From: Thalassovita sp.
GTDB taxonomy: Bacteria > Bacteroidota > Bacteroidia > Cytophagales > Flammeovirgaceae
Assembly: GCA_002729595.1 (NCBI GenBank)
Contig: PBYL01000482.1
Span: 1-64,000 of the forward strand
Reading direction: 5' to 3'
DNA: 64,000 nucleotides
Made by a program: the position numbers and the translations under genes. The notes below the pieces were generated by a model. That model was not told the DNA's origin. It did not search any database and saw only the letters and a program-made list of their open reading frames with translations. Positions 17,947 to 34,558 of the stretch are shown piece by piece (the stretch's first letter is position 1; every line of letters begins with the position of its first letter).

Positions 17947-17984
17947 GGTGTTAAAGTTTTAATTGTGAAAAATAATTTAAGATT

Positions 17985-18071: not shown

Positions 18072-18106
18072 TAGGTGGTAAATCAAGTTTGGGCGAATCT
18101 TCTAGA

Positions 18107-18217: not shown

Positions 18218-18272
18218 GATTCTAAAATTTATGATTTTGAAATTGATTGATTCTATTTGATGATTGCGAAGA

Positions 18273-18410: not shown

Positions 18411-18609
18411 GGTTGAAAATTTTTGATTGTTGATGTGTTTATCTTGTTATTAAATAGCCTTAAAGCGATTAAGCTAACTATTTAATTATCAGAATCTTAA
18501 ACAACAGACTTCCATTTATTTATTCAGCCCTAAATGTGTACCGAATGAGTATCTTTCTTTTAATTGCTGGCTGCTCTATAAAAGGAATTACTGCTGCTTC
18601 TTTGAGTGA

Positions 18610-18897
18610 TTATTGTACTAGTGATTCTTCAGCCAAACGGTTGTAGATCATTTCACTTAATACATTCACATTCTGGAAAGATGTTTCATTAAACTCAGAA
18701 GGAAGTATGCCGAACTCTTCAGACAAGCGAGAAGCAATTTCAAGAATAGCTAAAGAATCTTGGATGATACCTGGCTCTTCATCAGTTCCGAAAAATGGAT
18801 CTTCGTTTCCGATATCTTCTGGAGATGCGCCATCGATTTCAAGAGCTTCAATAATGCATACTTTGATTTTTTCCTGAATTTGAGATAAAGTTTCCAT
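18610..18897 (-). CDS. Acyl carrier protein
   Basis: This acidic 95-residue protein has the carrier-protein helix II motif QDSLAILEIA. S48 is the expected phosphopantetheine attachment site (DSL). The sequence is longer at the front than FabI-pathway ACPs and carries an EDPFFGTDEEPG loop before the DSL, which resembles carrier proteins of dedicated type II pathways rather than housekeeping AcpP. The pantetheinyl transferase at 23598-24251 would activate it. It lies between the active ketosynthase and the precursor array, and its cargo is presumably the chain for the peptide acyltransferase. Confidence 0.9.
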   Translation of the reverse strand: METLSQIQEKIKVCIIEALEIDGASPEDIGNEDPFFGTDEEPGIIQDSLAILEIASRLSEEFGILPSEFNETSFQNVNVLSEMIYNRLAEESLVQ

Positions 18898-18989
18898 AGT
18901 TTTTAAAAATTTTAGGGTTGTAAAAATTGATATATTTTGAAATTGTTTTTTAGAATTTTGAATAGATAAATTTTACTCTGAGACTGAAC

Positions 18990-20201
18990 TCAGCTAAAAC
19001 TTTGTATCGCAATGGCCGACATATTTCCAGCAAAACCAAAGGAGTTCGAAATCGCCGTATCGAATTTGTAATCGAGACCTTTGTCTTTTACGATTACCAA
19101 ATTGTGGTCTTCTGCTTCCAAAATCGGATCAGAAAGATTAATAGTTGGCGGAATAAATCCATCGTGCATAGCCACTGTTGTTGCAACCAGTTCCACACTG
19201 CCTGCTGCGCCTAAAGTATGCCCAGTCATAGACTTGGTAGAGCTTACAAACACCGGTCTTTTGTCTGCCAGTTTTCTTATGGCTTTAATCTCCATCGTAT
19301 CATTAGCAGCGGTAGCCGTACCATGCGCATTGATGTATTCCACTTTGCCTATATCGATCTTGCCTTGCAATAAAGCTTTTTGCATTGCTGAGTAAGCAAA
19401 ACCTCCATCAGGACAAGGAGCCGTTGCGTGATACGCTTCATTAATGGTCGAATAACCTTTTATTTCAGCATAGATCTTTGCATTTCTCTTCTTTGCAGAA
19501 CTTAGGCTTTCTAGTATTACAAATGCACCAGCATCACCTAAATTAAGACCATCTCTGTTTTTATCAAATGGCTTACATGCTCCTTTTGAGATTGCTTGTA
19601 GTGCATTAAAACCACTGTAAGTTAGTTCTGTAAATACATCTACACCACCGGCAATCATGTAATCTACTCTTCCTTTCGAGATAAAGTCGAAGCCTCTGCC
19701 TATTGAGTTCGTTCCTGCTGCGCAAGCTGTCGAGATAGTTGAAATAGGACCTCTTAGATCGTATTGCTTGGCAATGTTACCTCCGATAGTAGAAGTTGTA
19801 TGAAAGAGCAAGTTGATATCTTTAGCAGGTTCTCCGTCAATTTTGTTTTTTACCCATCTCATAAATGGATAACTCGCTCCTACTGAAGTAGCTACGGCTA
19901 CTCCCATTCTTCTATTATTTATTTTATCCATTTGCAAGCCTGCATCTTCAATGGCATCCTGTACTACTTTTTTAGATAGATCACTGAGAATCGTTGCGTC
20001 TTTTTCGTATAAATCGTCGTACAGTTCTGGTTCCAATATGCAAGCACTGTTGTTTCTGTAAACAGGCAAGCTGGTGTCAAATCTTCGAGTGGGAATTTGC
20101 TTTAATCCGGAGTTTCCATTGCGCAAATTGGTTTTAAATTCTTGCAAGTCTTTACCGATTGAGCATAGTATTCCCAGTCCAGTTATTACAACTCGTTCCA
20201 T
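18990..20201 (-). CDS. Beta-ketoacyl-ACP synthase, catalytically intact (KS-alpha type)
   Basis: I place the start at ATG 20201 (MERVVITGLG), giving 403 residues; the 26-residue extension to 20279 would overlap the reductase gene and lacks family residues. The catalytic set is complete: C160 in STACAAG, H293 in NAHGT, K323 and H328 in STKSMTGH. It is therefore a condensing FabF-like enzyme that elongates acyl-ACP with malonyl units. The operon also encodes a KS-like protein without the catalytic Cys, so the two could form an alpha/beta pair as in type II polyketide or aryl-polyene systems. It follows the FabG-like gene by 61 bp. Confidence 0.93.
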   Translation of the reverse strand: MERVVITGLGILCSIGKDLQEFKTNLRNGNSGLKQIPTRRFDTSLPVYRNNSACILEPELYDDLYEKDATILSDLSKKVVQDAIEDAGLQMDKINNRRMGVAVATSVGASYPFMRWVKNKIDGEPAKDINLLFHTTSTIGGNIAKQYDLRGPISTISTACAAGTNSIGRGFDFISKGRVDYMIAGGVDVFTELTYSGFNALQAISKGACKPFDKNRDGLNLGDAGAFVILESLSSAKKRNAKIYAEIKGYSTINEAYHATAPCPDGGFAYSAMQKALLQGKIDIGKVEYINAHGTATAANDTMEIKAIRKLADKRPVFVSSTKSMTGHTLGAAGSVELVATTVAMHDGFIPPTINLSDPILEAEDHNLVIVKDKGLDYKFDTAISNSFGFAGNMSAIAIQSFS

Positions 20202-20262
20202 AGCGTTTAATATTTGATGATTGATTATGAAATTGAATAAAGGTGTTTTACAATCATCTGCA

Positions 20263-21012
20263 TTATACGCCGATGCCACCGTCTATGGTAATCTCCTGCC
20301 CGATGATGTATTGAGGGGCTGCACTTGCTAGATAACTAACCAAATTTGCTACTTCTATAGAAGTTCCCATTCTTTTAAGCGGGCTTCTCGACATGCGCTC
20401 TTCAAAATAACCATTGTTTAGGTTTGAAGTCATATCTGTCTCGATTAAGCCAGGAGAAACACAGTTTATAATTACTCCTGAGCGAGCTACTTCTTTGGTA
20501 AGTGCTTTAGAGAATGAAACAATCGCTGCTTTTGAAGCTGAATAAGCTGATTGTCCTGGATTGCCTTTTTGGCCTGATAGGGATGTGATATTGATAATTA
20601 CTCCACGCTTCTGGCGAATCATCATCGGTAGTACATTGCGACAGGTGTTTACCACACTAGCCACATTGGTTTTTACTACCTTCCACCATTCATCGTCTGT
20701 AGTGAACATAAACGGGCGGCTATTTCCAAGAATTCCTGCATTGTTTACTACTACATCAATCTTCGGAAATTCTTTTTTGATATTTTTAAATAAGCTGGCT
20801 ACTTCTTTACTATCGCTCATATCGCACTTAAGTGCTTTTGCTGTCGGTAAATTGTGTTCTGCGATTTCATTTACGAGTGACTCAGCCATTTCTACCTTGC
20901 TTAAGTAGGTAAATATTACTCTGTAACCTTGATGAGCAAGTTCTAGTGAGATAGCTCTACCTATTCCCCGAGTGCCACCAGTTACAAGGGCTATTTTTTG
21001 ATGTGCTTCCAT
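20263..21012 (-). CDS. 3-oxoacyl-ACP reductase, FabG-like SDR
   Basis: The 249-residue classical SDR has nucleotide loop TGGTRGIGRA (11-20), NNAG (90-93), and catalytic S144 with Y157-x-x-x-K161 in SAYSASKAA. It ends in the family-typical IIGQEITIDGGIGV. It would reduce the beta-keto group made by the adjacent ketosynthase with NADPH. Its place between the TPR gene and the KS gene, and the dehydratase in the same operon, give a full reduce-and-dehydrate cycle. No enoyl reductase is present, so an unsaturated or polyene chain is the likely product. Confidence 0.93.
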   Translation of the reverse strand: MEAHQKIALVTGGTRGIGRAISLELAHQGYRVIFTYLSKVEMAESLVNEIAEHNLPTAKALKCDMSDSKEVASLFKNIKKEFPKIDVVVNNAGILGNSRPFMFTTDDEWWKVVKTNVASVVNTCRNVLPMMIRQKRGVIINITSLSGQKGNPGQSAYSASKAAIVSFSKALTKEVARSGVIINCVSPGLIETDMTSNLNNGYFEERMSRSPLKRMGTSIEVANLVSYLASAAPQYIIGQEITIDGGIGV

Positions 21013-21080
21013 AATTGCTTTTCTGATGTTAATTCAATTTGTGTATGTATCTGATTTGCTAGTGATTATTGACTTAGGAA

Positions 21081-21743
21081 TTAATCTTCTTCAACTTGAT
21101 CTTTATAGCGACCTAAAGCGTGCTCTAGTGGTGCTCTTCCCCAGTGAGGCTTGATAGTGTTTTCGTCTGCGATATTTTCTGCAAAAAGTCTGGCTGAGTT
21201 ATCGAATAATCTCTTTGCAGCTTCAGGGCCACCACCAAAATCAGCAGGTACATTGTACAAGTTTTGAGCTAAGAGATAGTAAGCTCTTGGATTGTTTTTG
21301 TCTATCGCACAAGCTTCTTTAAGGTAAGAGTTAGATTTAGATACGAATTTCATTCCACGACCCATTACATCTACTTTAATTCTACTGCTATAAGAAAGCG
21401 CTTTTAAGCATAAAATCTCTGAGTTATTCGGTGAAAGCGAATCAGCAACTTCGAGATACTTGTTTGCCTTTTGAGCAAGCACATCTATATCGTTGATGTC
21501 TTTGGTAACCATTGCTTGGTTAATCTTGCTGAAAGCTGCGTAGTAGTAAGGCAACCATTTGTCTTTTTCAGCGAGTGCAATTCTTTCAAAGTTATTTGCC
21601 ATCGTTAAGAAAGTCGCTTCTGTAACTGCCGTATCTAATATTTGAACATTCTCTAGCACAGCAGCTTCGTAAGCATTGTCTTGAGCAAGTACAACAGCAT
21701 AAGTAAATGCCAATGTTAATAGGGTGAAAATCAGTTTTTTCAT
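21081..21743 (-). CDS. Secreted TPR-like protein of unknown role
   Basis: The 220-residue protein has a signal peptide (MKKLIFTLLTLAFTYAVVLAQ). Helical repeats resembling tetratricopeptides follow, for example KANKYLEVADSLSPNNSEILCLKALS and KNNPRAYYLLAQNLYN, then ADFGGGPEAAKRLFDNSARLF. No catalytic motif is seen. It would sit in the periplasm or outer-membrane space. In the middle of the operon it may scaffold export or assembly of the lipidated product, a role otherwise missing because no transporter is encoded. That role is inference only. Confidence 0.75.
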   Translation of the reverse strand: MKKLIFTLLTLAFTYAVVLAQDNAYEAAVLENVQILDTAVTEATFLTMANNFERIALAEKDKWLPYYYAAFSKINQAMVTKDINDIDVLAQKANKYLEVADSLSPNNSEILCLKALSYSSRIKVDVMGRGMKFVSKSNSYLKEACAIDKNNPRAYYLLAQNLYNVPADFGGGPEAAKRLFDNSARLFAENIADENTIKPHWGRAPLEHALGRYKDQVEED

Positions 21744-21797
21744 GATAATAAAGTTTTAAAAGATTGAATGAATGATTTATAAAGTATTAGTGGTTGA

Positions 21798-23042
21798 TTA
21801 ATATTTCTTGAGAACCATACTGGTGGTATTACCTCCCAAATGGATGGAGTTTACAATAGCATAGTTGATTTTATCTTTTACCTCTATACTTTCTTCTGGT
21901 ATAATAATCTGCTTATTTACACCTTCCAGTACTTGATTTGGAAAGCCTGTGCCTGGTACCATTTCGTATTTTACACCCAGTGCTCCTGTAGCCAGCGAAA
22001 GTGTTGCTGATGCTCCCAGTGTTTCACCAGTTTTAGATTTAATAGTGGTATAGTAAACCTCTTCTTTTTTACACACATTTTCGATGGCTTTCGCTTCGTA
22101 GCTTTTTACCTGCCAAGGCAAGCAAGAACCGCCAACTACCAAATCCACATCGTTTTCGCTAATTCCTGTGTGTTGGATGGAATCTAACATAACAGAAGCC
22201 AAGTCGGTATGGGAGCGCTCTGTTAGCAAGTGATTTCCAATACCATCGCATCCGGTAGAATAGCCCAATACTTCTGCGTAGATAGGTGCATTTCTTTCGA
22301 GTGCGTGCTCCAGTTTTTCCATTACTACAAAGGCAGAACCTTCACCAAGAATAAGTTTTCCTTCCTCTTCAGGAGTGCCCAATTTTTCTTTGAGTGAAAC
22401 ATATTCTCCCTTTTCATTTTTAGGTGATAGTACTTTATCACTCAATACATAATTAAAAAAAGTAGAATCTCTTAGTTCATCAAAACCGCCACAGATCATA
22501 ACATCTGCTTTGTCGTCTTGCAGCAGATCGAAACCATAAGCTGCGCTGTTTTCTCCCAAAAGCATAGAGCTTGGGCCTCTTAATTTAAAAAAGCGAGTTA
22601 CATCTCCCAGAGCACAATTGGCCACTGTTTTAGTAAAGTTCAGCGGACTTACCTTATCTGCACCTCTTTCATACAGTTTAGTCAAGTAACTCTCGACCGC
22701 TGCATTAGCAGCTATATCTGTATTTAAGATCAACCCTAATCTTTCTGGTGAGAATGAAGGTAGGTCTAGCTGTGCGTCATCAATCGCCAAATGACAGCCC
22801 AGCATAGCCAATTGCGAATACCTCAGGGGAAATGGAAAACGTAAACCAGCTAAATAATTCTTTATTGAAAACTCTGTGCAAACGCCACAGTATTGTTTTT
22901 CTATTTCTTGGTATTCCCACTTTTCTCTAAGCGAGATACCAGATAAGTTTTGAGTAATTTTATCGATAAACGAAGCTTTTCCCACACCCATGCTAGACAC
23001 CGTTCCAACTCCGGTAATTACAATTCTTTGTTGATTTTCCAT
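21798..23042 (-). CDS. Ketosynthase-like protein lacking catalytic Cys (KS-beta / chain-length-factor type)
   Basis: The 414-residue protein has the overall thiolase fold of FabF (IVITGVGTVSSMGVGKASF at the start, KSKTGETLGASATLSLATGAL near the end). The active-site segment reads RGPSSMLLGENSAAYGF, placing N165 where Cys should be. The NAHGT His is replaced (VVGGSCLPWQ) and the KSMTGH His is Glu (KSKTGE). Such degenerate partners act as chain-length factors with an active KS. Together with the KS at 18990-20201 it implies a type II PKS or aryl-polyene-like chain. A structural or decarboxylating role is possible. Confidence 0.85.
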   Translation of the reverse strand: MENQQRIVITGVGTVSSMGVGKASFIDKITQNLSGISLREKWEYQEIEKQYCGVCTEFSIKNYLAGLRFPFPLRYSQLAMLGCHLAIDDAQLDLPSFSPERLGLILNTDIAANAAVESYLTKLYERGADKVSPLNFTKTVANCALGDVTRFFKLRGPSSMLLGENSAAYGFDLLQDDKADVMICGGFDELRDSTFFNYVLSDKVLSPKNEKGEYVSLKEKLGTPEEEGKLILGEGSAFVVMEKLEHALERNAPIYAEVLGYSTGCDGIGNHLLTERSHTDLASVMLDSIQHTGISENDVDLVVGGSCLPWQVKSYEAKAIENVCKKEEVYYTTIKSKTGETLGASATLSLATGALGVKYEMVPGTGFPNQVLEGVNKQIIIPEESIEVKDKINYAIVNSIHLGGNTTSMVLKKY

Positions 23043-23084
23043 GATGTTATTTTTTTGATTGTTGAATAAAACAGGCTCTTATTA

Positions 23085-23555
23085 TCAGGAGATATGAACA
23101 GTTACGCTACCTTTTGCTGCTACTTTGCCTTCGCAAATTACTTTGGCATCAAACTCAGAGAAACCCATTAGTTTGTGTTTAAACTTTACTTCTATTTCAA
23201 GTTTGCTCTCTGGCCTCACCTCTTTGTGAAAAGATACATTTTTAATTTTGATAGCTCTGCCAGAAGCTGGTTTCTGCGGAACCTGAACTTGTTCGGAATT
23301 GCCAAAGTTGAGCGCTTCTAATCTGCCGTATAAGCCGCAGGTTTGGAACATCATCTCTACCAGAATTACACCTGGCAAAAGTGGGTAGCCCGGAAAATGA
23401 CCTTGGAAAAAGATTTCATCTTTGCCAATCTCTTTATTGGCTGTGAGTGATTCACCAAACTTAAAGTCAACGATATTATCTACCAATAAAAATGGCGGGC
23501 GATGTGGCAATAGCGTTTCTGGTTTTGGGTAATCAATTTTCGTTTCGGTAATCAT
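23085..23555 (-). CDS. 3-hydroxyacyl-ACP dehydratase, FabZ-like hot-dog protein
   Basis: The 156-residue protein has LLPHRPPFLLVD (15-26), the motif FFQGHFPGYPLLPGVILVEMMFQ (split here as FFQGHFPGYPLLPG and VILVEMMFQ) with H53 and E67 as the expected catalytic pair, and the hot-dog end strand GKVAAKGSVTVHIS. It would dehydrate beta-hydroxyacyl-ACP to the trans-2-enoyl form. Without an enoyl reductase, repeated cycles would leave conjugated double bonds. It is shorter than typical DH domains of PKS and close to FabZ length. Confidence 0.92.
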   Translation of the reverse strand: MITETKIDYPKPETLLPHRPPFLLVDNIVDFKFGESLTANKEIGKDEIFFQGHFPGYPLLPGVILVEMMFQTCGLYGRLEALNFGNSEQVQVPQKPASGRAIKIKNVSFHKEVRPESKLEIEVKFKHKLMGFSEFDAKVICEGKVAAKGSVTVHIS

Positions 23556-23597
23556 GATTTTGAGTTTTAAAATGTTGATGTTTTGGGTTGATCTTTC

Positions 23598-24251
23598 TTA
23601 AAATTCTTTGACTAATTGGACTAAATCCACCTCTTTCGTTTCGATATCCACCGACTTCTGGTGAAAAGCGATACAACACACATAATCGGTATGAATATCT
23701 AGTTGATGGATGTAATAAGTATTTTGACCTTGATAGTAAATATTTTCTGGGCAGTAAATCTCTGTAAAAGCCATTCCGAGTCCGTTTCCATCTACTTTTC
23801 CTATTGCTTCTTTCTTTGCCCAAACAGTAATCTTGCTATGATTATCCATATCTTGATCTTCTAATGGATGGAGAAAAAAACTCGATGCTCTTTTACTAAT
23901 TTTTACCACATGTTGTATATCTATTCCCACTTTACACTGGGGAGCAATGGCGCAAATAATGATATCTTTTGAGTGCGAGATATTAAAATCTATCTGTAAG
24001 TTTTGAAAAAATGGTCTGCCATTTCCAGAATAATATATCTCTTGTAAAGCATCCTCATAATAGCCCATGTCTTTTAAACCATGTGATAACAGCAACTTGC
24101 CCGTGAGTGATAATGCTCTTGCTCTTTCTGCTTTATACATAGACAGACGCTTCTTTAGCACTGGAGGAAAACGCTCCATAATGCTTGTTACCAGCTCTGC
24201 AGAGGGTAACTGATCTATCTTTGTATAATATACCTGACAACTTTTGAGCAT
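23598..24251 (-). CDS. 4'-phosphopantetheinyl transferase, Sfp type
   Basis: The 217-residue protein has the PPTase motifs NISHSKD (90-96), VGID at 108-111 and W144-x-x-K147-E148-A-I-G-K152. D111 and E148 are magnesium ligands. The usual Glu after GIDI is Gln here (GIDIQ, Q113), a tolerated change in some members. It would attach phosphopantetheine to S48 of the ACP in this operon. It ends 42 bp before the FabZ-like gene. Encoding its own PPTase makes the module self-contained, as is common in transferred secondary-metabolite clusters. Confidence 0.88.
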   Translation of the reverse strand: MLKSCQVYYTKIDQLPSAELVTSIMERFPPVLKKRLSMYKAERARALSLTGKLLLSHGLKDMGYYEDALQEIYYSGNGRPFFQNLQIDFNISHSKDIIICAIAPQCKVGIDIQHVVKISKRASSFFLHPLEDQDMDNHSKITVWAKKEAIGKVDGNGLGMAFTEIYCPENIYYQGQNTYYIHQLDIHTDYVCCIAFHQKSVDIETKEVDLVQLVKEF

Positions 24252-24273
24252 AGTTAATTAGTTTATCAATTGC

Positions 24274-25698
24274 CTATTTTGCGACTTTAACAGAATTGGC
24301 TTTTAGGAACTCAATTTTCACTTTTTCCCATGCATTAAACTGGAAGTGCTCGCACAGTAACAAGTAGACTGATTCGTGCGTGAGCTTACAAGCTGGCATG
24401 GTGACTATAGAAATAATGGTTTCGCCATTTTTTACATCTACTATGGCTTTTAGCACTTTTCCGGTGCTGTAGATTGCATTGGCTATTTCTTGAAACCAGA
24501 TGCTGCGACCTTCCACTTCAATCTGGTTTTTACTTCTGCCTAACACAAAGAGTTTTCCTGTTTCAGAGAAGTAAGCCATGTCTTCTGTGAGTATATTTTG
24601 TTGTGGCTTTACATGAGGAGGCAACTCATGCATATATCCATTCATTACCGAAGGACTCTCAATTAACACTCTGCCAATTTCGTTCGATTTGGTATCATTC
24701 CCTTTGGCATCCAACACCCTCATTTTCACACCTTCTAGTGGATAACCAACTGAATCGATTTCAGGATCTGTTGGCGTTTCAACTTTGTAAGTACTCACTC
24801 TTGGTCCAGCCTCTGCAAGTCCGTATGTTTTTATAAATGGACAGCTAAAAACATTCATGGCTCTTTGTAGAGACTCTTTTTCTATGTGATTCCCACCTAC
24901 TGTAATAAACCTCAGCGAGCTAAAATCACCTGTAAAAAATCCTTTCTCCTGCATGTAATTGATCTGCCTAATCATAGGTGGCACAGTAAACAAAGAGGTT
25001 GCTTTACTAGCAGGAATCAATCTTGGAATTTGGGTAATGGCAAACCTTGCATCTGCCAAAACAATTTTACTACCTACATACAAATGGCTGAGAAACTGTG
25101 CGATCAAACCATATGAATAGTTCATGGGTAAAGCCATTATGGTAGTATCATCTGGGCGAATCCCGATCGATTTTACATTGGCTTTGATGTTAGCAATGGT
25201 GCCAACTGCACTCAGTTTTATCACCTTGCTAATGCTTGTACTTCCAGAACTAGTCACGAGCAAAGCGGTATCTTCTAAGTACTTATGAGGATTATAGTGA
25301 CCGTTTTTAAAGAGAAAGCTGATATTGAAAATAGATTCGCATTTCAGCTTTCTTTCAATCAGAGATTTGTAAAGTGCCGAACTCGTATTTTTTTCGTGAG
25401 CCAGATAGCCATAGCAGTTCAATTTTTCAAAATCGATGGCATTTTCTTGTAATTCATTTACAATAAGCGGAATGGCTTCGAGCTGTAAAAGTGCTAAGAA
25501 TATAATAGATAGTTCAATAGAATTCGGGAACGAGAGCACAATGATTTTTCCCTTATCAATTCCCTGCTTTTCTAGCTCTTTTGCATAGAGGTTTACTTTT
25601 GCCCATAGCTCGCTATAAGTAATACCTTTTCCGCTTTCGATGAGTGCAACTGAGTTACTACAATTCTCTTTGAGAATATTAATGATGGAATGATTCAT
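24274..25698 (-). CDS. AMP-dependent acyl/aryl-acid ligase
   Basis: The 474-residue adenylate-forming enzyme has the Ser/Thr/Gly-rich loop LLVTSSGSTSISKVIKL (about 154-170), ITVGGNH, KTYGLAEAGPRVSTY, and hinge LGRSKNQIEVEGRSIWF. The C-terminus ends NSVKVAK, where the catalytic Lys is expected. Enzymes of this type load a carboxylic acid on CoA or carrier protein, often the starter unit of type II or aryl-polyene chains. The substrate pocket cannot be read reliably by eye. It is preceded by the acyltransferase and followed by the PPTase in the same operon. Confidence 0.88.
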   Translation of the reverse strand: MNHSIINILKENCSNSVALIESGKGITYSELWAKVNLYAKELEKQGIDKGKIIVLSFPNSIELSIIFLALLQLEAIPLIVNELQENAIDFEKLNCYGYLAHEKNTSSALYKSLIERKLKCESIFNISFLFKNGHYNPHKYLEDTALLVTSSGSTSISKVIKLSAVGTIANIKANVKSIGIRPDDTTIMALPMNYSYGLIAQFLSHLYVGSKIVLADARFAITQIPRLIPASKATSLFTVPPMIRQINYMQEKGFFTGDFSSLRFITVGGNHIEKESLQRAMNVFSCPFIKTYGLAEAGPRVSTYKVETPTDPEIDSVGYPLEGVKMRVLDAKGNDTKSNEIGRVLIESPSVMNGYMHELPPHVKPQQNILTEDMAYFSETGKLFVLGRSKNQIEVEGRSIWFQEIANAIYSTGKVLKAIVDVKNGETIISIVTMPACKLTHESVYLLLCEHFQFNAWEKVKIEFLKANSVKVAK

Positions 25699-25734
25699 AT
25701 TTTTATCATAGCAAAGGTTTAGAAAATTTGGGTT

Positions 25735-26907
25735 TTAAGACGCCAATTTAGATTGAATTAAAACCCGTTTTTCTATCAGGTTTTGTAAGAGTGAGTCAGA
25801 GAGATTTGCAGCAATGCTATACTCAGGATTCACGGTTTCTCGCTTATCCAAAAAGCTTAATAACTCTTCGTTAATTTCGTAGGCACTATAGCTTGCCCTG
25901 TTAAACAGAAAACAGTTTTCGTCTAGTTTAAAAAGGCTATACTCCGTTTTATTGAAGACTAAATTTTCCACAGCTCCGCCATTATCTGTTGTATTTTCTA
26001 TACTGATTACACGCTTTATATTATCCCAATCGAGGTATTTGTGCACATAAAGCCAACCCTCCCATTGGTCGTAATAAGTAAGCAGTTTTTCTTCGAGTAT
26101 CTTATACAAATAAGAGGTAACTGTGTAGCAATAATCTTCTTTTCCTTTGGTCCACTCAAGTGGATTAATCGGATCATAAAATTTGAGTTTTACGTCTTGT
26201 TCATGGTCATCATACCAGGAGATCACCGGAATAACAGGCACTTTTGCGGCATAAGAAAGGGTGGTAATTCCCTTTCTCGAATAGAGGTTTTGATGTAAAA
26301 AAGGAATATTCAAAAATTGAGGGTCTTTTTTATAGATACCTCCTACTCCGGTGTTACCATCCAGGTATGCTACAACTGATCTGCCAGATCGAATGTGTTT
26401 AAATAGTCGGATTGCAATGTCGTGTTGTTCTGCTGCTTCGAGCCCAAAATAGGACGATTGGTTAAAGTTGGCATGTATTGAGTTTACAATTTCAGTAACT
26501 TTTATGTGCTGCTTATTATAGGTGTTTTGGTCTACCAAAAGTACAAAGTCTATGCCTGCACTGGCCAATACCCCTATAATTGACCGGTAAGAACCCAAAT
26601 GATAAGTACAGTATATAGCTGGTGTTTGTTGTTCTAGACAACTGGTGTCGCCTATGCGGTTGATGTTGTTTATAAGGTCAGGATACGACGGTTCTGTCAC
26701 CAATCGTGAGTTGTTGTAAAGGATGTTATAGTATATGTTTTCATGCGATGATACTGGAACAGTTGGCAAAAAGTTGGATAAATTTGCTGATAAAAAATTG
26801 AAATCTTTTAGTTGCTTTTCTTGCTTCTTACGCTGTTCGCGTTTGGTAATATGCTCTTTGAGACGATGATAGTTTTGTTTGTAAAGTTGGCTGCTGATAG
26901 TTTCCAT
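25735..26907 (-). CDS. LpxL/HtrB-like acyltransferase with C-terminal PqqD-like domain
   Basis: The 390-residue protein has the lysophospholipid/lipid A acyltransferase layout: TYHLGSYRS (H103 as the catalytic His of an H-x4-[D/E]-like motif, here ending in Arg), then YLDGNTGVGG, and KGITTLSYAAKVPVIPVISW. Residues about 310-388 (FKLDENCFLFNRASYSAYEI then a helical and wing-like part to EKRVLIQ) look like a PqqD-type leader-binding domain. No transmembrane anchor is visible at the start. An acyltransferase carrying a RiPP leader reader should move the ACP-made chain to the peptide, perhaps to ornithine formed by the arginase-like enzyme. That substrate is inference. Confidence 0.8.
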   Translation of the reverse strand: METISSQLYKQNYHRLKEHITKREQRKKQEKQLKDFNFLSANLSNFLPTVPVSSHENIYYNILYNNSRLVTEPSYPDLINNINRIGDTSCLEQQTPAIYCTYHLGSYRSIIGVLASAGIDFVLLVDQNTYNKQHIKVTEIVNSIHANFNQSSYFGLEAAEQHDIAIRLFKHIRSGRSVVAYLDGNTGVGGIYKKDPQFLNIPFLHQNLYSRKGITTLSYAAKVPVIPVISWYDDHEQDVKLKFYDPINPLEWTKGKEDYCYTVTSYLYKILEEKLLTYYDQWEGWLYVHKYLDWDNIKRVISIENTTDNGGAVENLVFNKTEYSLFKLDENCFLFNRASYSAYEINEELLSFLDKRETVNPEYSIAANLSDSLLQNLIEKRVLIQSKLAS

Positions 26908-26974
26908 AGGGGTATTTTTTAGTCGTTGATAATTGAAATAGATAGCGATTGATGTTTGTGTTAGGTTGAGTTTA

Positions 26975-27496
26975 TTAGCTAAATGTGCAAGTGCTCAAAT
27001 AATCTTTAGAGATATCGATTGAAACAGATTGTTTTAAAGCTTGTAACTGAACTACAAATCTGCTTTTACCATTTTCTCTTACTAGTATGCCTTCTGTTCC
27101 TGCAAACTGGCCTTTGGTAATTGTTACTCTGTCGCCAATGTGGTAGTTATCTGCGGTAGAAGATACTACTGGGTTTCCACAAAGTACTTTTTTGATTGAT
27201 TCAATCTCTTCTTCAGGAATTGAAACTGGTGAACCTCCAAAAGAAATGAAGTTTACTAAACCTCTCACTTTCATTAAATTGAATCTCTCTTGCGAGCTAG
27301 TTTTTACAAATACATAGTTTGGAAAAAGCGGTGTTTCAATTTCTTTTTTGCGATCGCTCCATTGGCGAACTTCTTTTTGCATGGGAAGAAATGTTTCGTA
27401 ACCCAATTCATTTACTTTGTTTCTAACTTGCTTTTCAGCTTGCGGATATGTGTAAACAACATACCAAGACGGATTTAAATGAGCGTTTTTTTTCAT
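26975..27496 (-). CDS. Specialised NusG paralog (UpxY/LoaP-like antiterminator)
   Basis: I start at ATG 27496 (MKKNAHLNPSWYVVYTYPQAEKQV), giving 173 residues; the longer frame to 27547 adds a basic stretch without family similarity. It has the NGN domain (WYVVYTYPQAEKQVRNKVN; PLFPNYVFVK; VRGLVNFISFGGSP) and a KOW motif (GDRVTITKGQFAGTEGILV). Paralogs at the head of long secondary-metabolite or capsule operons (UpxY, LoaP) stop premature termination across them. Here it is the first gene of a 17-kb operon with strong hairpins in the precursor spacers. Confidence 0.92.
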   Translation of the reverse strand: MKKNAHLNPSWYVVYTYPQAEKQVRNKVNELGYETFLPMQKEVRQWSDRKKEIETPLFPNYVFVKTSSQERFNLMKVRGLVNFISFGGSPVSIPEEEIESIKKVLCGNPVVSSTADNYHIGDRVTITKGQFAGTEGILVRENGKSRFVVQLQALKQSVSIDISKDYLSTCTFS

Positions 27497-27933
27497 GGTT
27501 TTATAGTTTTTGCGTTTTCTTCTTCTTTGGATATGGCTTCGCCACATTGGGTCACAAGCCCTATTTTTAATAAATTATATGTCTCCTCCGCCTCTTTCAG
27601 GTTTCTTAAAAACTCTGGAGCTTCTTTCTTTTTGTCTTCCCTTCATCTCCTTTGTTATTTCAAAGATGCACCAGAATATTCGCCATTTGAAAATTATTAC
27701 ACGAACCCGCTTTTTATAAGTACTAATATTTCAAAAAAGATTTTTATAGTGTTTATGGTGGATAAAACCCCGGTTTTGGAGGTATAAACCAGAAATAAAA
27801 TAGATAACTATGGACTAATCCGGTATTTTGAGATGAATAGCAATGATTTCTTTATAACTAATTAATAGTAATTCTGGATTTGAAGGATATTTTCTATATT
27901 ACCCAATAGAAAAATTTGACTTGCTATACCATT
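27497..27933. other. Divergent control region between the NusG-like and LanB genes
   Basis: 437 bp that must hold both the promoter of the biosynthetic operon (minus) and that of LanB (plus). It is AT-rich (for example TAGATAACTATGGACTAATC near 27799-27818). I see no strong palindrome or recognisable riboswitch. Frames crossing it, such as 27479-27787, lack coding features. A long 5' leader for NusG-type regulation is possible. Confidence 0.6.
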
Positions 27934-30900
27934 ATGAAATCAGACTACAACTTTCATCCAAAACTAATACTACGCACGCCCACACTGGCATTTCAAGAAG
28001 ATGTTAGTAGAGAAGTCATTATCGAGCAATTGCAAAATCCTCACTTTCTCGAAGCACTTTACCTGGCATCACCAAGTGTATATAGTAAATGTCAACTTTT
28101 AGTAAATAATCAAATAACTAATCCTAAAGAGGAACAGAAAATCCTAAACACACTTATAAAGTATTATACACGCATGTTTAGCCGCTGTACTCCTTTTGGT
28201 TTGTTTGCTGGTTGCACAGTGGTTAATTGGGATGAAAGTCAAAATCTGAAAATAGATACAAGTAAAAAGCAGCAGCATACCCGTTTGGATATGCATTACC
28301 TCTGTGCACTCTCTCAACATTTGGCACAAAAAGAATTTCTTAAATATGAATTAAAGTATTTCCCCAATAGCAGTGTTTACAAAATTGGAGATGAGATACG
28401 CTATATAGAATACCAGTATGTAGATGGCAAGCGCATCCACCAGATAAGTGCGGTTGAAAACTCTGAGTATTTGCAAAAAGCTTTTGAGATATGTAAGACG
28501 GGATGTAACCCTCAAAATATTGCTCCTTATATAATAGATGATGAAATTGATAATGACACTGCCCTTGAGTTTATAGATCAACTCATCTCTGCACAACTGT
28601 TAGTAAGTGAGTTAGAACCAGCCATCACTGGTGAAGAGTTTATCTATCAATTATTAAAAGTTTTAGTGCGAATCGACAGTTCGAATCCAGATGAAGAGTT
28701 GCAACAAATCATTCATCACCTTAAACAAATTGATGAACTACTCAAAAGTATTGATGGAGGTAATGGAAACAACCTAGCTGCTTATGAGGAAATTATTAGC
28801 ATTTTGGAAAAACTGGAAGTGCCATTCGAAAAGAATAAGCTCTTTCAAACTGACACAATGTTTCCAGATGAGGAACAGAAATTAGATAAAAAGTATCAGG
28901 AACAGATAATGGAAGCTTTTGAGCTGCTTCAATACCTCACTCCAAAAAGAGATAATAAACTGCTCGACAATTTTATAAAGGAGTTTTATACCCGATACGA
29001 AGATAAGGAAATGCCACTACTGCAAGTCTTAGATACAGAATCGGGAATTGGTTTTGGCGAAGTTGATAATAGTGGCAATACGCCATTAGTAGAAGATATT
29101 GAATTGAATGATGATCACATCAAAACAACAAAGATTGAAAGATCGGAAGCTGTGCAGTATTTATATGATAAAGTAAGAGCCGCAGAAAAAAATGGTCAAT
29201 ACAGCATTCAATTAGATAAGCAAGTTTTTAATAAGCTTACAAAGCAAGAGTTTAACTTATCACCTTCTCTTTCTGTAATGTTCCGCATGTTGGATGATGA
29301 AAAGCTTTTTATAGAATCTTTTAGTGGTTCGAGTGCCGCCAATTTACTTGGCAGGTTTGCGCATGCAAATCCAGAAATCCATGAAGTAGTAAATGAGATT
29401 ACGGAGCTTGAACAAGCTAAAAATACTGATGTGATATTTGCAGAGATTGTTCATTTACCAGAAAGCAGAATTGGAAACATTTTGTTAAGACCTGTTTTTC
29501 GCGAATATGAGATCCCCTATCTCACAAAGTCTGCTGTTGCGGCTGATCAACAAATTAGCTTACAAGACTTATATATATCTGTAAAAAACAATCAGCTTGT
29601 ATTGAGGTCTAAAAAATTGAATAAGATGATAGTGCCACGATTGAGTTCGGCACATAATTATACTAACCGATCAATGCCGATTTATCATTTTTTGGCTGAG
29701 CTACAAAATCAAGGTTTGCAGACATATTTACAATTGCAGCCAGATCACAAGCAAATGGGCACTGCTTTTATTCCGAGAATCACATATAAAGATATCATTC
29801 TCTACCCTGCTACATGGAAGTTGCAAAAAGATGATTTTAATATGTTGATTAAAGGAAAAGATATACCAGAAGCGATAAAGCAATTTCAGCAAAAATGGAA
29901 TTTGCCTCGCTATTTTGTTTTGGCAGATGCCGACAGAGAATTAATGATTGATCTTGAAAATGATTTAATGACCAAAGCCTGGCTTGACACCATTAAGAGC
30001 CGAGATGAGATCACATTAAAGGAATTTATTTTTGATAAAAAGGATAACCCGGTAACAGATGAACAAGGCAAACCTATAGTAAACCAGTTTATTGCCAGTT
30101 TGGTAAAACAGAAAGCAGCACACCAAATCAATATTTTCGCTGATGATAAAACAGATGAAGACGTACAAAGAGAGTTTTCGCTGGGTTCAGAATGGATATA
30201 CTATAAATTATACTGCGGAGTAGATGCAGCAGATAAAATCTTAGTAGAAACTATTAAACCACTTGCAAAACTGCTCCTTTCTGAAAAACTGATTGATAAA
30301 TGGTTTTACATCAGATTTGTCGATCCTGATCATCATTTAAGAATCCGGTTCCATTTGCCTAAAGTCTCTGTAATTGGAAAGGTGATCTTGCAGATAAATA
30401 CATATCTCAAACCTTATGAAGAAGAAAACATCATTTGGCAAACACAAACTGCTATTTATAGAAGAGAGCTAGAAAGATATGGCAAGCAAAGCATCACCGA
30501 AATAGAAAGTTTGTTTGCGGCCGATAGCCAGTTTATTTTAGAAGCCCTAGAACAATTAGCTTTTAGTGATGAATCTACCCACCATCGCTGGTTATTTGGC
30601 ATTAGTGTTTGTAATTCCATATTAGATGCTTTCAATTATAGCTTAGAAGATAAATTAGAGCTGGCAAAAAAACTCAGAGATTCTTTTGCAGAAGAATTTA
30701 ATATGGATAAAAACTTGAAACTTCAACTAGACAAAAAATACAGAAGTTTCCGTCCAGAAATTACGACTTTGCTCACCCAAAATGCCCCAGAAGAAATTGA
30801 ATTTCTACAATTCTTATGTGAACCTTATAGTAAACTAGAATTCTTGGCAGAAAAGATAATCATTCACCATACAAAGCCATCGCTTGATGGAGCTGTAAGC

Positions 30901-31065
30901 AGTCTTTTGCATATGCACTTAAACAGACTTTTGCCAGCAAAACAGCGATTACATGAGTTATTGATCTACGACTTTATGTTTCGACATTATATGTCTCAAC
31001 AGGCAATATTGAAGAAAAAGAAAGATTTTTCTCATGGACACGCTTCAGAGAAACATCTTTCGTGA
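27934..31065 (+). CDS. Full-length class I lantibiotic dehydratase (LanB-like)
   Basis: I choose ATG 27934 (MKSDYNFHPKL) over TTG 27916. The 1043-residue protein carries both LanB halves. The N-half (Lant_dehydr_N) includes FSRCTPFGLFAG at about 82-93, RPVFREYEIPYL and PRITYKDIILYPATWKL. The SpaB-type C-half includes GSEWIYYKLYCG, WFYIRFVDPDHHLRIRFHLP, RRELERYGKQSITEIESLF and RWLFGI. Both glutamylation and elimination appear intact. It would dehydrate Ser/Thr through glutamyl-tRNA. It converges with the LytTR gene after 11 bp and shares the 437-bp region with the hybrid operon. Its most likely substrate is the 43-aa peptide at 33201. Confidence 0.93.
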   Translation: MKSDYNFHPKLILRTPTLAFQEDVSREVIIEQLQNPHFLEALYLASPSVYSKCQLLVNNQITNPKEEQKILNTLIKYYTRMFSRCTPFGLFAGCTVVNWDESQNLKIDTSKKQQHTRLDMHYLCALSQHLAQKEFLKYELKYFPNSSVYKIGDEIRYIEYQYVDGKRIHQISAVENSEYLQKAFEICKTGCNPQNIAPYIIDDEIDNDTALEFIDQLISAQLLVSELEPAITGEEFIYQLLKVLVRIDSSNPDEELQQIIHHLKQIDELLKSIDGGNGNNLAAYEEIISILEKLEVPFEKNKLFQTDTMFPDEEQKLDKKYQEQIMEAFELLQYLTPKRDNKLLDNFIKEFYTRYEDKEMPLLQVLDTESGIGFGEVDNSGNTPLVEDIELNDDHIKTTKIERSEAVQYLYDKVRAAEKNGQYSIQLDKQVFNKLTKQEFNLSPSLSVMFRMLDDEKLFIESFSGSSAANLLGRFAHANPEIHEVVNEITELEQAKNTDVIFAEIVHLPESRIGNILLRPVFREYEIPYLTKSAVAADQQISLQDLYISVKNNQLVLRSKKLNKMIVPRLSSAHNYTNRSMPIYHFLAELQNQGLQTYLQLQPDHKQMGTAFIPRITYKDIILYPATWKLQKDDFNMLIKGKDIPEAIKQFQQKWNLPRYFVLADADRELMIDLENDLMTKAWLDTIKSRDEITLKEFIFDKKDNPVTDEQGKPIVNQFIASLVKQKAAHQINIFADDKTDEDVQREFSLGSEWIYYKLYCGVDAADKILVETIKPLAKLLLSEKLIDKWFYIRFVDPDHHLRIRFHLPKVSVIGKVILQINTYLKPYEEENIIWQTQTAIYRRELERYGKQSITEIESLFAADSQFILEALEQLAFSDESTHHRWLFGISVCNSILDAFNYSLEDKLELAKKLRDSFAEEFNMDKNLKLQLDKKYRSFRPEITTLLTQNAPEEIEFLQFLCEPYSKLEFLAEKIIIHHTKPSLDGAVSSLLHMHLNRLLPAKQRLHELLIYDFMFRHYMSQQAILKKKKDFSHGHASEKHLS

Positions 31066-31076: not shown

Positions 31077-31811
31077 TTACTTTTTACCGCCCATTATTTT
31101 TTCTTTTAGCACTTCAAAAAATGGTTGGCGGTAAGTATCTCCAAGAGGCAAATAAGCTTTCATGTTATAAAGTAGAATTTGGTTTCCATCTACCGCTTTA
31201 ATTTGATCTAAAGCTACAATATATGAGCGATGCACACGCATAAACTTCTTTTCTGGCAGTCTAGCTTTTAGATCTTTGATGTTTAGCAATGTTACCACTC
31301 TTTCACCATCGCTGGTATAAATGGAAACATAATTTTTTAGTCCCTCTACATAGGTAATATCTTTAAAATTAACCTTTACCATTTTTCCCTTGTTCTCTGT
31401 TTTCACAAAGATGTAATCGTCTTCATTTTCTTCAGACTGCCAGTCGGGCATATTGAAAATATCTTTGTTAAGCGCTTTTTGTGCCGCAGTTAAAAAACGT
31501 TGAAAAGGAATAGGTTTTAAAAGGTAATCGAGCGCCTCATACTCAAAACCTTCAATTGCAAATTCGCTATAAGCTGTGGTAAAAATTACTTTACATTTGC
31601 CTCCAAGCATCTTAATTAGATCAATCCCAGTAAGATGTGGCATTTGGATGTCCATAAAAATAAGATCAATCTGGTGGTTATTTACCAGTTGCAATACTTC
31701 CATGGGGTTGGTAGTGGTATCAATGAGTTTTAAAAATGGGGTACGCTCAATATATTCTTTCAAAATATTGATAGCACCTTGTTCGTCGTCAACGACCAGA
31801 CATGTAATCAT
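31077..31811 (-). CDS. LytTR-family response regulator
   Basis: The 244-residue protein has a receiver domain with the acidic pocket and Asp in LIFMDIQMPHLTG, then LKPIPFQRF. A LytTR DNA-binding domain at about 135-240 includes DITYVEGLKNYVSIYTSDGE and FMRVHRSYIVALDQIKAVDGN. The gene overlaps the histidine-kinase gene by 4 bp. This pair type is common in Bacteroidota. It lies between LanB and the precursor/LanC genes but on the opposite strand, so a regulatory role for this RiPP locus is likely though not shown. Confidence 0.93.
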   Translation of the reverse strand: MITCLVVDDEQGAINILKEYIERTPFLKLIDTTTNPMEVLQLVNNHQIDLIFMDIQMPHLTGIDLIKMLGGKCKVIFTTAYSEFAIEGFEYEALDYLLKPIPFQRFLTAAQKALNKDIFNMPDWQSEENEDDYIFVKTENKGKMVKVNFKDITYVEGLKNYVSIYTSDGERVVTLLNIKDLKARLPEKKFMRVHRSYIVALDQIKAVDGNQILLYNMKAYLPLGDTYRQPFFEVLKEKIMGGKK

Positions 31812-32809
31812 AGCATTATCTTTAAGTTAGTTGAGTAAAATTCTCCTTCGTTTTTTGAATTAAATGAGTAGTTTTTTCCGTAAATAGCATCGAGTCTTTT
31901 TAAAGTATTGGTAAGCCCAACACCAGTAGACTTTTCTGCTGGAATAGCCCTTTTCTTATTAAATGTACTAAAAATTAAATAATCATCCTTCACATCTAGT
32001 GTAATGATGATCGGATGTTCTGGATCGTTGGCATTTCCATGTTTAAAACAATTCTCCACTAGTGTAATAAGCACCAATGGGATGATCATTCTAAATTGTG
32101 TTTTACCAATTATCTCGAATTTAATTTGTAGGGTGTTCTCGAATCGTAGTTGATTAATGGCAATGTAATTCTTAATGTGTATCACTTCTTCTTCCAGCAT
32201 CACTTTACCTTCTATATCTTCTTGAAAAGCATAGCGCATAATATCTGAAAGTAAGAGTATTCCTTCGGCAGTTTTCTCAGATACTTTATGAATCTTTGAA
32301 TACAAAAAATTAAGAGTATTAAACAAAAAATGTGGATTAATCTGACTCTTTAACATGGCCACTTCTACCTTTCTTCGCTCTTTCTCTGTTTTAATCATAT
32401 TGGTGGCAAACCAATATCCGATACTCAACATAATAAAATAACCACCACGCCAGATTGATTCTGCTAAAAAACGATTCGATGTTCTAAACTCATATACCAA
32501 GTCATATCCAAAAAGTGGGATAATATATATTTTCAAAATATACCTTAGTGATACAAAAATCGCAATAGTTAATAATAGACTAGGAACAAGTAACAAATAC
32601 TTTCCTCTTTTATAGAAGTTTGGAAAAATTACTAGCGCATTGGTGTAAAAAAGCGCAGCATAGAGAGAGAAGTTGAAGAATGTTTCCCAGAAATTAAAAT
32701 AGTTACTATCTATAATAAATATCGTGGAGAGTTCATAAATCACATAAAAAATCCATACAAAGACATGGATTGAGATAGTCTTTAATTCTTTCTGCTTTAA
32801 TTGGATCAT
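31808..32809 (-). CDS. LytS-like sensor histidine kinase
   Basis: The 333-residue protein has four or more N-terminal membrane helices (about 12-140). The phosphoacceptor His sits in KSQINPHFLFNTLNFLYSK, followed by an ATPase part with LVENCFKHG and GVGLTNTLKRL. These kinases sense membrane or envelope signals and phosphorylate a LytTR partner. The ATG of the regulator overlaps its stop, so the two are coupled. Its promoter lies in the 391-bp region shared with the 43-aa precursor. Confidence 0.93.
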   Translation of the reverse strand: MIQLKQKELKTISIHVFVWIFYVIYELSTIFIIDSNYFNFWETFFNFSLYAALFYTNALVIFPNFYKRGKYLLLVPSLLLTIAIFVSLRYILKIYIIPLFGYDLVYEFRTSNRFLAESIWRGGYFIMLSIGYWFATNMIKTEKERRKVEVAMLKSQINPHFLFNTLNFLYSKIHKVSEKTAEGILLLSDIMRYAFQEDIEGKVMLEEEVIHIKNYIAINQLRFENTLQIKFEIIGKTQFRMIIPLVLITLVENCFKHGNANDPEHPIIITLDVKDDYLIFSTFNKKRAIPAEKSTGVGLTNTLKRLDAIYGKNYSFNSKNEGEFYSTNLKIML

Positions 32810-33200
32810 ACAGCACTAAATAATAGAAGCTAGGCGATTAGTTTATTTATTTTTTAGTAATAAAGTAATTAATGGATACAGCATAAACTTAAAAAAAGAT
32901 TTCCAAAATTCTGGCATAAAGTATTGCTTAAATTTTAGGGATTAATCATTTAAATAAGCTTGTTTATCCAATTTACTAAAATATTCGTCCTATTCTTTTT
33001 GGTTGTTTGTATTGAGCAAAATCTAGATTTGTACAAAAAAACAGGCTACTTATACGAATGTTTTTCTGGTTTGTACTTCCAATCACCGTGTTGGTGTAAT
33101 AATTTTTCTTATCGCTCCAATCCTTTGCATGTTTGTAATGTTGCTAGCGGACAAAAACTCAATAAAACTTATACAACCCTAATACAAAACTTTTACAAAC
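32810..33200. other. Divergent region between kinase and Cys-free precursor
   Basis: 391 bp with promoters for the kinase pair (minus) and the precursor/LanC-like genes (plus). A frame from 32960 reaches 33286 but overlaps the precursor in another frame and shows no coding character, so I leave it out. I found no clear LytTR direct repeat by eye. Confidence 0.5.
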
Positions 33201-33332
33201 ATGAAAACGCAAAATTCTATCTCAAAAAAAATCGTCCTAAGAAAAAGAACAATAACAAAATTAGACACAGTAAAATCTGTAAATAAGAAACAATCGACTA
33301 CGATTACAACGACAAGCACTATTTCTTTTTAA
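33201..33332 (+). CDS. Bacteroidota class I lanthipeptide precursor without cysteine (43 aa)
   Basis: The leader MKTQNSISKKIVLRKRTITK followed by LD matches the Bacteroidota class I lanthipeptide pattern, in which a basic L-x-L-x-K-x-T-I-x-x-L stretch precedes the core. The remaining residues, ending KKQSTTITTTSTISF, contain nine Ser/Thr in the last 13 and no Cys anywhere in the peptide. LanB could dehydrate several of them, but no thioether can form within it. The gene sits 83 bp before a LanC-like gene whose zinc ligands are altered. It is too short for usual gene callers. The start is the only ATG in frame. Confidence 0.8.
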   Translation: MKTQNSISKKIVLRKRTITKLDTVKSVNKKQSTTITTTSTISF

Positions 33333-33415
33333 AAATTGATAACCAGCTATCTTTCAACCGGCTATACTAAACTTATTTATCAACAAGACAATTATTAATA
33401 ATAAATGATAGATAA

Positions 33416-34558
33416 ATGTTAAAATCAGAAGAATATATCGTAAGTATTAATTCTATAATAGATAAACATTATAAAAACCTGAATGACTATTCAAGAATAG
33501 AGCTAATACTTTACTATTATACTCTTCATAAAGTATACAATAAGGATGAAAATGCTGAAAGATTTGAGTCCGTATTAAATGATTATTTGAAGTTGCTATC
33601 TAGCCATAGTTCTAACATTCAATCGCAAGCTGATCATTTTATATACGGGCTCTTTATTTTATCTGAGCCAGAAAACTCAAGCTTTGTAAATTCAACCACT
33701 AGAAGTCAAATCGAGAGAATTGATCATAATCTCTTTAACTATGCTTTTGCGGTTTTAAGAGAGAAACAAACAGATAATTTACAATACATTACTACCATTA
33801 TTAACTACTTTACTTCTAAATTACCAGAAGGAAAATACGCTGAATATCTGAATCAGCTTTTACCACTCATATTTAATTGCATCGAAAAATATACTGATTA
33901 CAATGCCGCCAAAAATGGAACGACCCAAGCACTCTATTTAGGTTTTGGCAACGGATTAGCAGGCTTGTTACTTTCTTTGGTAAATCTCCACATGGTGGGC
34001 ATTAAAAATGACCAAACCGAAAAAGTGATTACAAAAGCTATTAAGTATATTTTTTCACTTAAAAGAGAAATAGATTTTTCTCCAGGCAATTACTCTATGT
34101 TCCCCTATCGAGTAAACAAGCACGAAAAAGACATTGCTTATTCGTCTCAATTAAGCTGGGCAAATAGTGATCTAAACCACTCTATTCTATTCTATAAGTC
34201 TGATCAGATTTTGCACAACCATAACTTGCATAGAATCGCAGAACTTATTGGTTTAAATACCCTTATTCGCAAAGATATTGCTTCTACTCAGGTGATGAAT
34301 TCTTGCTTTTTTAATGGTGCTGCTGGTGTGGCTGAATCTTACAGAGCTTTGTATCAATTGAGCAAGCAAACTGCTTACAAAGAAGGTTACGAATATTGGA
34401 TTGACAAAACCATGTTTTACTTAGATCAGGAAATCAAAGAAAACAAACACCTACATCCAAACTTTAACTTTTTAAAAGGATTAACTGGTGTTGGTCTAAC
34501 CCTCTTATCACACATTTCTCAAGATGAATTGAGCTGGAATAAGCTTTTATTTGCTTGA
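33416..34558 (+). CDS. LanC-like protein with altered zinc-ligand positions
   Basis: The 380-residue protein has the alpha-toroid look of LanC: LGFGNGLAGLLLSL (about 175-188), LSWANSDLN (246-254), CFFNGAAGVAESY (297-309) and LKGLTGVGLTLLSH near the end. In LanC the zinc ligands are the Cys of WCxG and the Cys-His of CHG. Here W248 is followed by A249, and the CHG position reads F299-N300-G301. C297, two residues upstream, is the only nearby thiol. Cyclase activity is therefore doubtful. It may chaperone the dehydrated Cys-free peptide, or be a remnant. It follows the precursor by 83 bp. Confidence 0.82.
   Translation: MLKSEEYIVSINSIIDKHYKNLNDYSRIELILYYYTLHKVYNKDENAERFESVLNDYLKLLSSHSSNIQSQADHFIYGLFILSEPENSSFVNSTTRSQIERIDHNLFNYAFAVLREKQTDNLQYITTIINYFTSKLPEGKYAEYLNQLLPLIFNCIEKYTDYNAAKNGTTQALYLGFGNGLAGLLLSLVNLHMVGIKNDQTEKVITKAIKYIFSLKREIDFSPGNYSMFPYRVNKHEKDIAYSSQLSWANSDLNHSILFYKSDQILHNHNLHRIAELIGLNTLIRKDIASTQVMNSCFFNGAAGVAESYRALYQLSKQTAYKEGYEYWIDKTMFYLDQEIKENKHLHPNFNFLKGLTGVGLTLLSHISQDELSWNKLLFA

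Follow-up and report, generated by a model that had tools for sequence, protein, structure and literature searches.

A putative autoregulated peptide cassette of class I lanthipeptide parts with a LanC-like partner lacking its zinc site in Bacteroidota

In a stretch of 64,000 nucleotides from Thalassovita sp. (contig PBYL01000482.1, hereafter the window), a short peptide gene without Cys codons is accompanied by a LanB dehydratase, a LanC-like protein without zinc ligands and a two-component system of the LytTR type (Table 1). On balance we favour the view that this locus is an autoregulated peptide cassette assembled from class I lanthipeptide parts, in which the LanC partner is dead and the product signals to the two-component system. 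Because a LanC fold lacking its catalytic residues recurs in 24 loci alongside an intact LanB and a precursor free of Cys, the simplest reading of the sequences would be a dehydrated product free of thioethers, with LanC in a pseudoenzyme role, much as the initial annotation had proposed. A signalling role is pointed to by a dedicated two-component system and by its promoter, both of which are additional to that annotation.

Table 1. Features of the cassette and of its surroundings in the window
Feature	Position	Strand	Basis or remark
Third promoter copy, box1-21-box2-28-CATATTTG	9788..9854	-	95 bp before ATG of 61-aa ORF 9553-9738 (-)
Neighbouring RiPP operon, probably co-regulated	13763..27547	-	Pfam/NCBIfam matches; site at 27706 heads it
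Second promoter copy, box1-21-box2-28-CATCTTTG	27661..27727	-	Heads the NusG/acyltransferase RiPP operon
LanB dehydratase, full length	27916..31065	+	Lant_dehydr_N 477.7 bits, Lant_dehydr_C 221.4 bits
LytTR response regulator	31077..31811	-	Response_reg and LytTR matches; homologue in 23/24 cassette loci
Histidine kinase PF06580, divergent from precursor	31808..32809	-	His_kinase 83.4 bits; homologue in 22/24 cassette loci
Regulator box 1 (candidate), GTTTGTACTT	33069..33078	+	Repeat 21 bp before box 2
Regulator box 2 (candidate), GTTGGTGTAA	33090..33099	+	111 bp before precursor ATG
-7-like promoter element, CATGTTTG	33128..33135	+	Box 2 precedes it by exactly 28 nt
Cys-free precursor peptide, 43 aa, MKTQNSISKKIVLRKRTITKLDTVKSVNKKQSTTITTTSTISF	33201..33332	+	NCBIfam leader model match
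LanC-like protein, LanC toroid kept; zinc ligands, catalytic His and Arg absent	33416..34558	+	Pfam LANC_like; AlphaFold2; alignment columns

Precursor, dehydratase and a LanC fold without its zinc site

The initial annotation had drawn attention to an overlooked ORF of 43 aa with a lanthipeptide leader, and the profile search agrees with it: the peptide, whose leader carries the motif IVLRKRTITKL and whose C-terminus is rich in Ser and Thr, matches the NCBIfam class I leader model NF038153 (lant_leader_L1a) with 23.7 bits against a cut-off of 22 and has therefore a leader of the class I type. The core bears none of the Cys residues from which (methyl)lanthionine is formed. Counted on the translation, the tail contains, as annotated, no Cys and nine Ser/Thr among its last 13 residues, and at least nine in the final 13 were found in one of 700 control ORFs (38-60 aa) taken from the same loci. 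The LanB of the window possesses both domains, and its glutamylation and elimination motifs are intact; the aligned motifs, which we take to be those of glutamylation and elimination catalysis, are preserved in all 21 cassette LanBs that were aligned, one of which has RFG instead of RYG. Its listed start is TTG and its seventh codon is ATG. The available genome (7.99 Mb, 77.7% complete) contains above cut-off one LANC_like match, one Lant_dehydr_N match and one NF038153 match.

The LanC-like ORF lies 83 bp downstream of the precursor, a gap that we confirmed, and its product matches Pfam LANC_like with 47.4 bits (cut-off 23.2). It is a stand-alone protein of 380 aa with the LANC_like match at 36-378, and the fused kinase and lyase domains of a class III LanKC are absent. 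The AlphaFold2 model (pLDDT 85.9, pTM 0.88) has as best fold matches MadC (Z 33.0, rmsd 3.6, 366 residues) and NisC (Z 32.7, rmsd 2.9, 353 residues). Family and predicted toroid fold are therefore those of a LanC cyclase, whereas the zinc-binding C/C/H and the catalytic His are replaced by A249, F299, N300 and N179.

W248, A249, C297, F298, F299, N300 and G301 are all as first read, and the suspected absence of zinc ligands was upheld by an alignment in which 24 zinc-less proteins of the cassette were compared with 56 zinc-complete homologues. A249, F299 and N300 stand where the zinc-complete proteins have C, C and H (56 of 56 at each column), and in the zinc-less set these ligands are found in 0, 2 and 0 of 24 proteins, respectively. 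Two further losses add to those annotated before: the catalytic His column 179, with H in 56/56 zinc-complete and 1/24 zinc-less proteins, is N in the window, and the Arg column 245, with R in 45/56 and 2/24, is Q. The identities of the catalytic residues in NisC and MadC follow the available text of PMC9889658, while the correspondence of columns comes from the present alignment. C297, considered as a substitute zinc ligand, was discarded because it is not conserved among homologues. The framework residues are retained in the zinc-less proteins (W248 in 23 of 24; D252 and G301 in all). The clade also has conserved positions of its own, among them D220, F221, Y260, much of 277-284 (the LVGLNTLL motif), S316 and Y321, of which Y260 and Y321 are invariant in the 24, and the comparison of one pair of loci, L088 and L096 (dN 0.093, dS 0.45), gave a dN/dS of about 0.21, indicating that the zinc-less LanC is maintained by purifying selection.

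A cassette shared by 24 loci

LanC-like proteins matching the query at E 0.001 were found in 51 of 390 genomes of the order, and most of those inspected were canonical. In named genomes, no relative was returned when the single window protein served as query; a profile scan yielded 13 loci, distributed over Hymenobacter, Pedobacter and Spirosoma validum, and four of the 13 were removed as duplicates. Altogether, 24 distinct loci of Cytophagales and Pedobacter (window included) possess a zinc-less LanC in common company: the regulator is present in 23, the kinase in 22 and LanB, within 6 kb, in 21. The 24 do not include the zinc-less L101, L107, L115, L053 and L073_1830 or the C-- tandem group; L115, whose flank is short, may be a further member. 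Pedobacter and Hymenobacter belong to different orders, and the cassette, being present in both, crosses orders. The idea of an accident unique to the window genome was rejected, since the cassette is found in relatives.

The 24 loci have no transporter, protease or immunity gene in common. The core cassette includes neither a conserved transporter that would account for export nor a conserved leader protease that would account for leader removal. Two of the loci examined, L140 and L150 (contigs C8 and C11 of genome G344), have an identical Cys-free precursor and promoter, as two copies in one genome.

Pairing of precursors and LanC proteins

A leader-type ORF adjoins 23 of the 24 zinc-less lanC genes; at L076 such a precursor was looked for and not found, though the promoter precedes the zinc-less lanC. 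Eighteen of the 23 precursors, including that of the window, have no Cys, and five have one (L066, L067, L068, L072 and L075); two extra precursor copies of L067, with one Cys each, were counted within that locus. Among the 700 control ORFs of the same size from the same loci the Cys-free share is 23%, and Ser and Thr make up 41% of the last 15 residues in precursors versus 19% in controls. Across the cassette loci the leaders are conserved and the tails diverge. A precursor-like ORF lies within 3.5 kb in 32 of the 53 zinc-complete loci; not one of the 32 is wholly Cys-free, and the 21 CCH loci without a detected precursor are not part of the count.

The association of Cys-free precursors with zinc-less LanC gives a Fisher p of 2e-10, a value that is overstated, as kinship leaves few independent pairs. 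Indeed, the LanC tree (38 of 92 inner branches weakly supported; three fragmentary or odd rows omitted) contains one independent pair on supported branches and two on all branches. The initial annotation had argued that both halves lost the chemistry of thioether formation together. This stands insofar as the pairing recurs in 24 loci, but the pairing is not strict, since the five precursors mentioned above keep one Cys and the outlier L101, whose zinc-less LanC reads WSNSD and FYYG, has four Cys-rich GG precursors; and, as a correlated event, joint loss lacks statistical support. With only one or two evolutionary events, 'lost together' is a property of the clade. L047 and L080, the closest of the zinc-complete proteins, are placed within the cassette part of the tree; their precursors bear Cys and have a similar type of leader, and a kinase/regulator pair lies a few kb off.

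Some observations concern LanC proteins outside this pairing. Tandem LanC pairs, one zinc-complete, were seen in L046, L048, L049, L053, L077, L079, L081, L082, L083 and L084; the partner LanC lacks the zinc His and, in most cases, one Cys or more, and these pairs are a second, separate route to a degenerate LanC. The tandem-LanC clusters also hold additional precursors of the non-GG kind, containing one or two Cys, next to a kinase/LytTR pair (L046 569-742, L049 1337-1486, L084 647-844 and L082 15949-16095), and a similar box pair precedes those of L046, L049 and L084. In L012 / L016, a lanC with an in-frame TAA, probably a broken copy, stands next to a Cys-rich precursor.

A paired-repeat promoter beside a LytTR system

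Upstream of the precursors, near-identical 9-mer pairs 21 bp apart were counted 34 times, versus 0.8 in shuffles. The promoter of the cassettes consists of two direct repeats 21 bp apart, then 28 nt, then an element resembling TAnnTTTG, the -7 element of Bacteroidota. Allowing up to two mismatches, the combined pattern matches 29 times in 456 kb of cassette loci versus 1.3 times in shuffles, and in 19 of 24 loci a match precedes the precursor or lanC. The same search did not find the promoter in this form at the precursors of L051, L075, L085, L091 and L095, none was found before lanB in the window, and no box of this type precedes the precursors of L047 and L080. This paired-repeat promoter before precursor or lanC is the new element of the cassette.

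Searched in the whole genome, GTTSGTGTAA-N28-NANNTTTG has four matches (reversed control: 0), three of which are in the window, at 33090 (+), 27706 (-) and 9833 (-). Box 1 reads GTTTGTACTT at the 33090 site and ATTAGTACTT and ATTCATACTG at the other two. The fourth match, on contig C113, was rejected as a target and ascribed to chance, as it lies, judged by eye, inside a permease-like coding frame. With CA in place of TA, the three sites of the window do not fit the strict form of the promoter; a looser form was used to count them. Across 380 genomes, the strict form was matched in 7 of the 14 cassette genomes (in one, G046, on a contig other than that of the cassette) and in 10 of the 366 others. 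Five of the latter belong to a single genus and share one similar sequence, and we took them as chance.

Sites of LytTR regulators consist of paired repeats about two helical turns apart. In the window, a kinase and a regulator stand next to the peptide gene and paired direct repeats precede it, the arrangement of autoinducing systems of the NisRK/LytTR kind as far as it can be read from sequence; the paired repeats and the adjoining LytTR gene fit a precursor promoter under putative LytTR control. The N-terminal half of the kinase diverges faster than the kinase half, which is common among kinases.

The operon headed by the second promoter copy encodes NusG-like and acyltransferase-like proteins, an AMP-ligase, a PPTase, a FabA-like protein, two KS, FabG and a carrier protein, and further tandem precursors, an M50 protease and an arginase-family protein. 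It is likely a separate RiPP cluster, and its product could perhaps be acylated peptides. Its short precursors, in tandem at 16463-18410 (-), have one Cys each (for example 17640-17756, MSKEILKDALNIVELEERHEMTAVAAEADRCTITGDLV), and no NCBIfam model matched the two that were tested. At 13763-16257 (-), an arginase-family protein with a winged-helix-like N-terminus, possibly a peptide arginase, accompanies the M50 protease, whose nearest model, NF041824 (daptide intramembrane metalloprotease), remains below cut-off. The LpxL-like acyltransferase at 25735-26907 (-), a weak Pfam match, ends in 98 aa that look PqqD/RRE-like by eye; queried in a slightly altered copy, these gave no Pfam match, and their single-sequence model has a pLDDT of 45. 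The 61-aa ORF that follows the third promoter copy has no Pfam match.

In relatives, the neighbours of the cassette include NRPS genes (L070, L076) or, in L085, an A-domain protein. Either the promoter or its paired boxes precede TonB-type outer-membrane proteins in L067 and L070 and, in L096, an ORF that by eye resembles such a protein. These patterns fit a regulatory module travelling with biosynthetic clusters.

Proposed mechanism and alternative explanations

According to the mechanism that we propose, LanB would glutamylate Ser and Thr of the tail and eliminate them to Dha and Dhb, and the zinc-less LanC would bind the leader or the dehydrated chain, serving as scaffold, as shield or for hand-over. 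No thioether is expected to form, because neither Cys nor zinc is present. NisC offers an example of a LanC that can bind peptide without acting on it: according to the accessible part of PMC8546558, it binds even undehydrated NisA. The kinase would then sense the linear dehydropeptide once it is freed, or else the state of its synthesis, and the LytTR regulator would activate the promoter of the precursor and, in the window, that of the adjacent RiPP operon. We infer the feeding of the adjacent kinase by the product with less weight than dehydration and peptide holding. Variable tails with constant leaders would be expected of a specific signal, and equally of a bacteriocin.

That the dehydrated linear peptide is instead a secreted antimicrobial or another effector, its two-component system being a switch for stress or autoinduction, as in nisin, rather than what the system is for, seems to us rather unlikely, even if it deserves attention: the variable tails rich in Ser/Thr behind conserved leaders resemble diversifying RiPP cores, and a dedicated two-component system is a frequent part of lanthipeptide clusters, but the cassettes share no transporter, protease or immunity gene, and the promoter recurs before other genes. 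Another possibility concerns the LanC fold, which could be a different cyclase that links dehydro residues to Lys, backbone or carbon as nucleophile in place of Cys, in the manner of class III, whose LanKC cyclase domains have no zinc ligands according to the available text of PMC7268733. The clade-specific conservation of D220, F221 and Y260 together with the invariant D252 would suit such an enzyme. However, the catalytic His is lost as well, the former ligand column 249 is R, S, A, P, H or Q, unlike an active site, and most tails end poor in Lys, and we consider this cyclase improbable.

A second, Cys-bearing precursor could be the true substrate, with rings closed by a canonical LanC elsewhere; the incompleteness of the genome and the one-Cys precursors of the neighbouring operon leave some room for it. 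Yet the genome has a single LANC_like and a single NF038153 match above cut-off, and the one-Cys precursors, which we do not think are substrates of the LanB/LanC cassette of the window, have a different leader and adjoin other enzymes (arginase, acyltransferase, M50), making this explanation very improbable. Finally, the window LanC-like protein is divergent, its top LanC identity within the tree set being 35%, as it might be in a decaying lanthipeptide locus where both genes are relics and nothing is made. This last explanation is hardly credible and was rejected: the frames are open and keep their shared company in 24 loci, dN/dS is about 0.2, the LanB motifs are intact and the promoter is conserved.

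Returning to the signalling cassette, it may exemplify a wider mode of communication in Bacteroidota, to which we tentatively give a little under even weight. A polydehydrated, thioether-free pheromone would be made by LanB and carried by a dead LanC, and LytTR regulators acting on the paired-repeat promoter would control its own synthesis, natural-product operons (here the RiPP cluster) and, in relatives, TonB-type receptors. If true, this would be a second use of the lanthipeptide machinery, yielding reactive linear dehydropeptides with the help of a pseudo-cyclase, and one possibly missed because published mining pipelines demand a core Cys. Should the circuit indeed be a peptide signal, it would offer a concrete and testable autoinduction system of Bacteroidota whose genes and promoter are named, and for which there is an isolate in a branch that is genetically tractable, that of Pedobacter cryoconitis, a relative of L095, described as such in the consulted text of PMC12181424. 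It would also provide a means to wake adjoining silent biosynthetic clusters.

Comparison with known systems

Linaridins are linear dehydrated ribosomal peptides whose dehydration enzymes are other than LanB. A linear dehydrated peptide is likewise predicted for the cassette, but its enzyme is a LanB of the glutamyl-tRNA type. In nisin NisRK and in Gram-positive LytTR pheromone circuits such as Agr and Com, a peptide gene stands beside a two-component system and paired direct repeats occur. The cassette shares this gene arrangement and the repeats; it differs in belonging to Gram-negative Bacteroidota and in combining LytTR with a LanB product, whose sensing is inferred. In Clostridium, a lanthipeptide-synthetase-like protein is reported to be linked to Agr (PMC10301443).

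The combination of LanB with a cyclase without defined zinc triad, as in the cassette, appears as 'B-Unk' in the available text of PMC11251773, which gives 14 predicted peptides of this kind and limits candidates to ORFs with at least one Cys. The same text includes Cys-free peptides among the substrates of the class II prochlorosin synthetase, so that LanB with a triad-less LanC was already known as a count, and Cys-free substrates were known in class II. Cys-free precursors for B-Unk, a regulator or a promoter link were not found in that text, and some of its 14 peptides may overlap with the present clade. The LanC-like proteins of Bacteroidales without the C-CH triad, from what is accessible of PMC10352776, are triad-less proteins of Bacteroidota like the LanC of the cassette, but have no LanB and adjoin radical SAM or CAZyme genes. 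We did not find the cassette, the precursor family or the promoter described in the open PMC papers that were searched.

The product of the cassette is not definable as a lanthipeptide unless a thioether is shown, lanthipeptide parts being used to make it. These parts, LanB, the LanC fold and the type of leader, are common to the cassette and to the class I lanthipeptides of Bacteroidota of the pinensin kind, whose leader motif LxLxKx5L is given in the accessible text of PMC7268733, where mining drops ORFs without core Cys. Compared with those lanthipeptides, the cassette has most cores without Cys, no zinc cyclase and no GG site, and it possesses a LytTR system and a promoter of its own.
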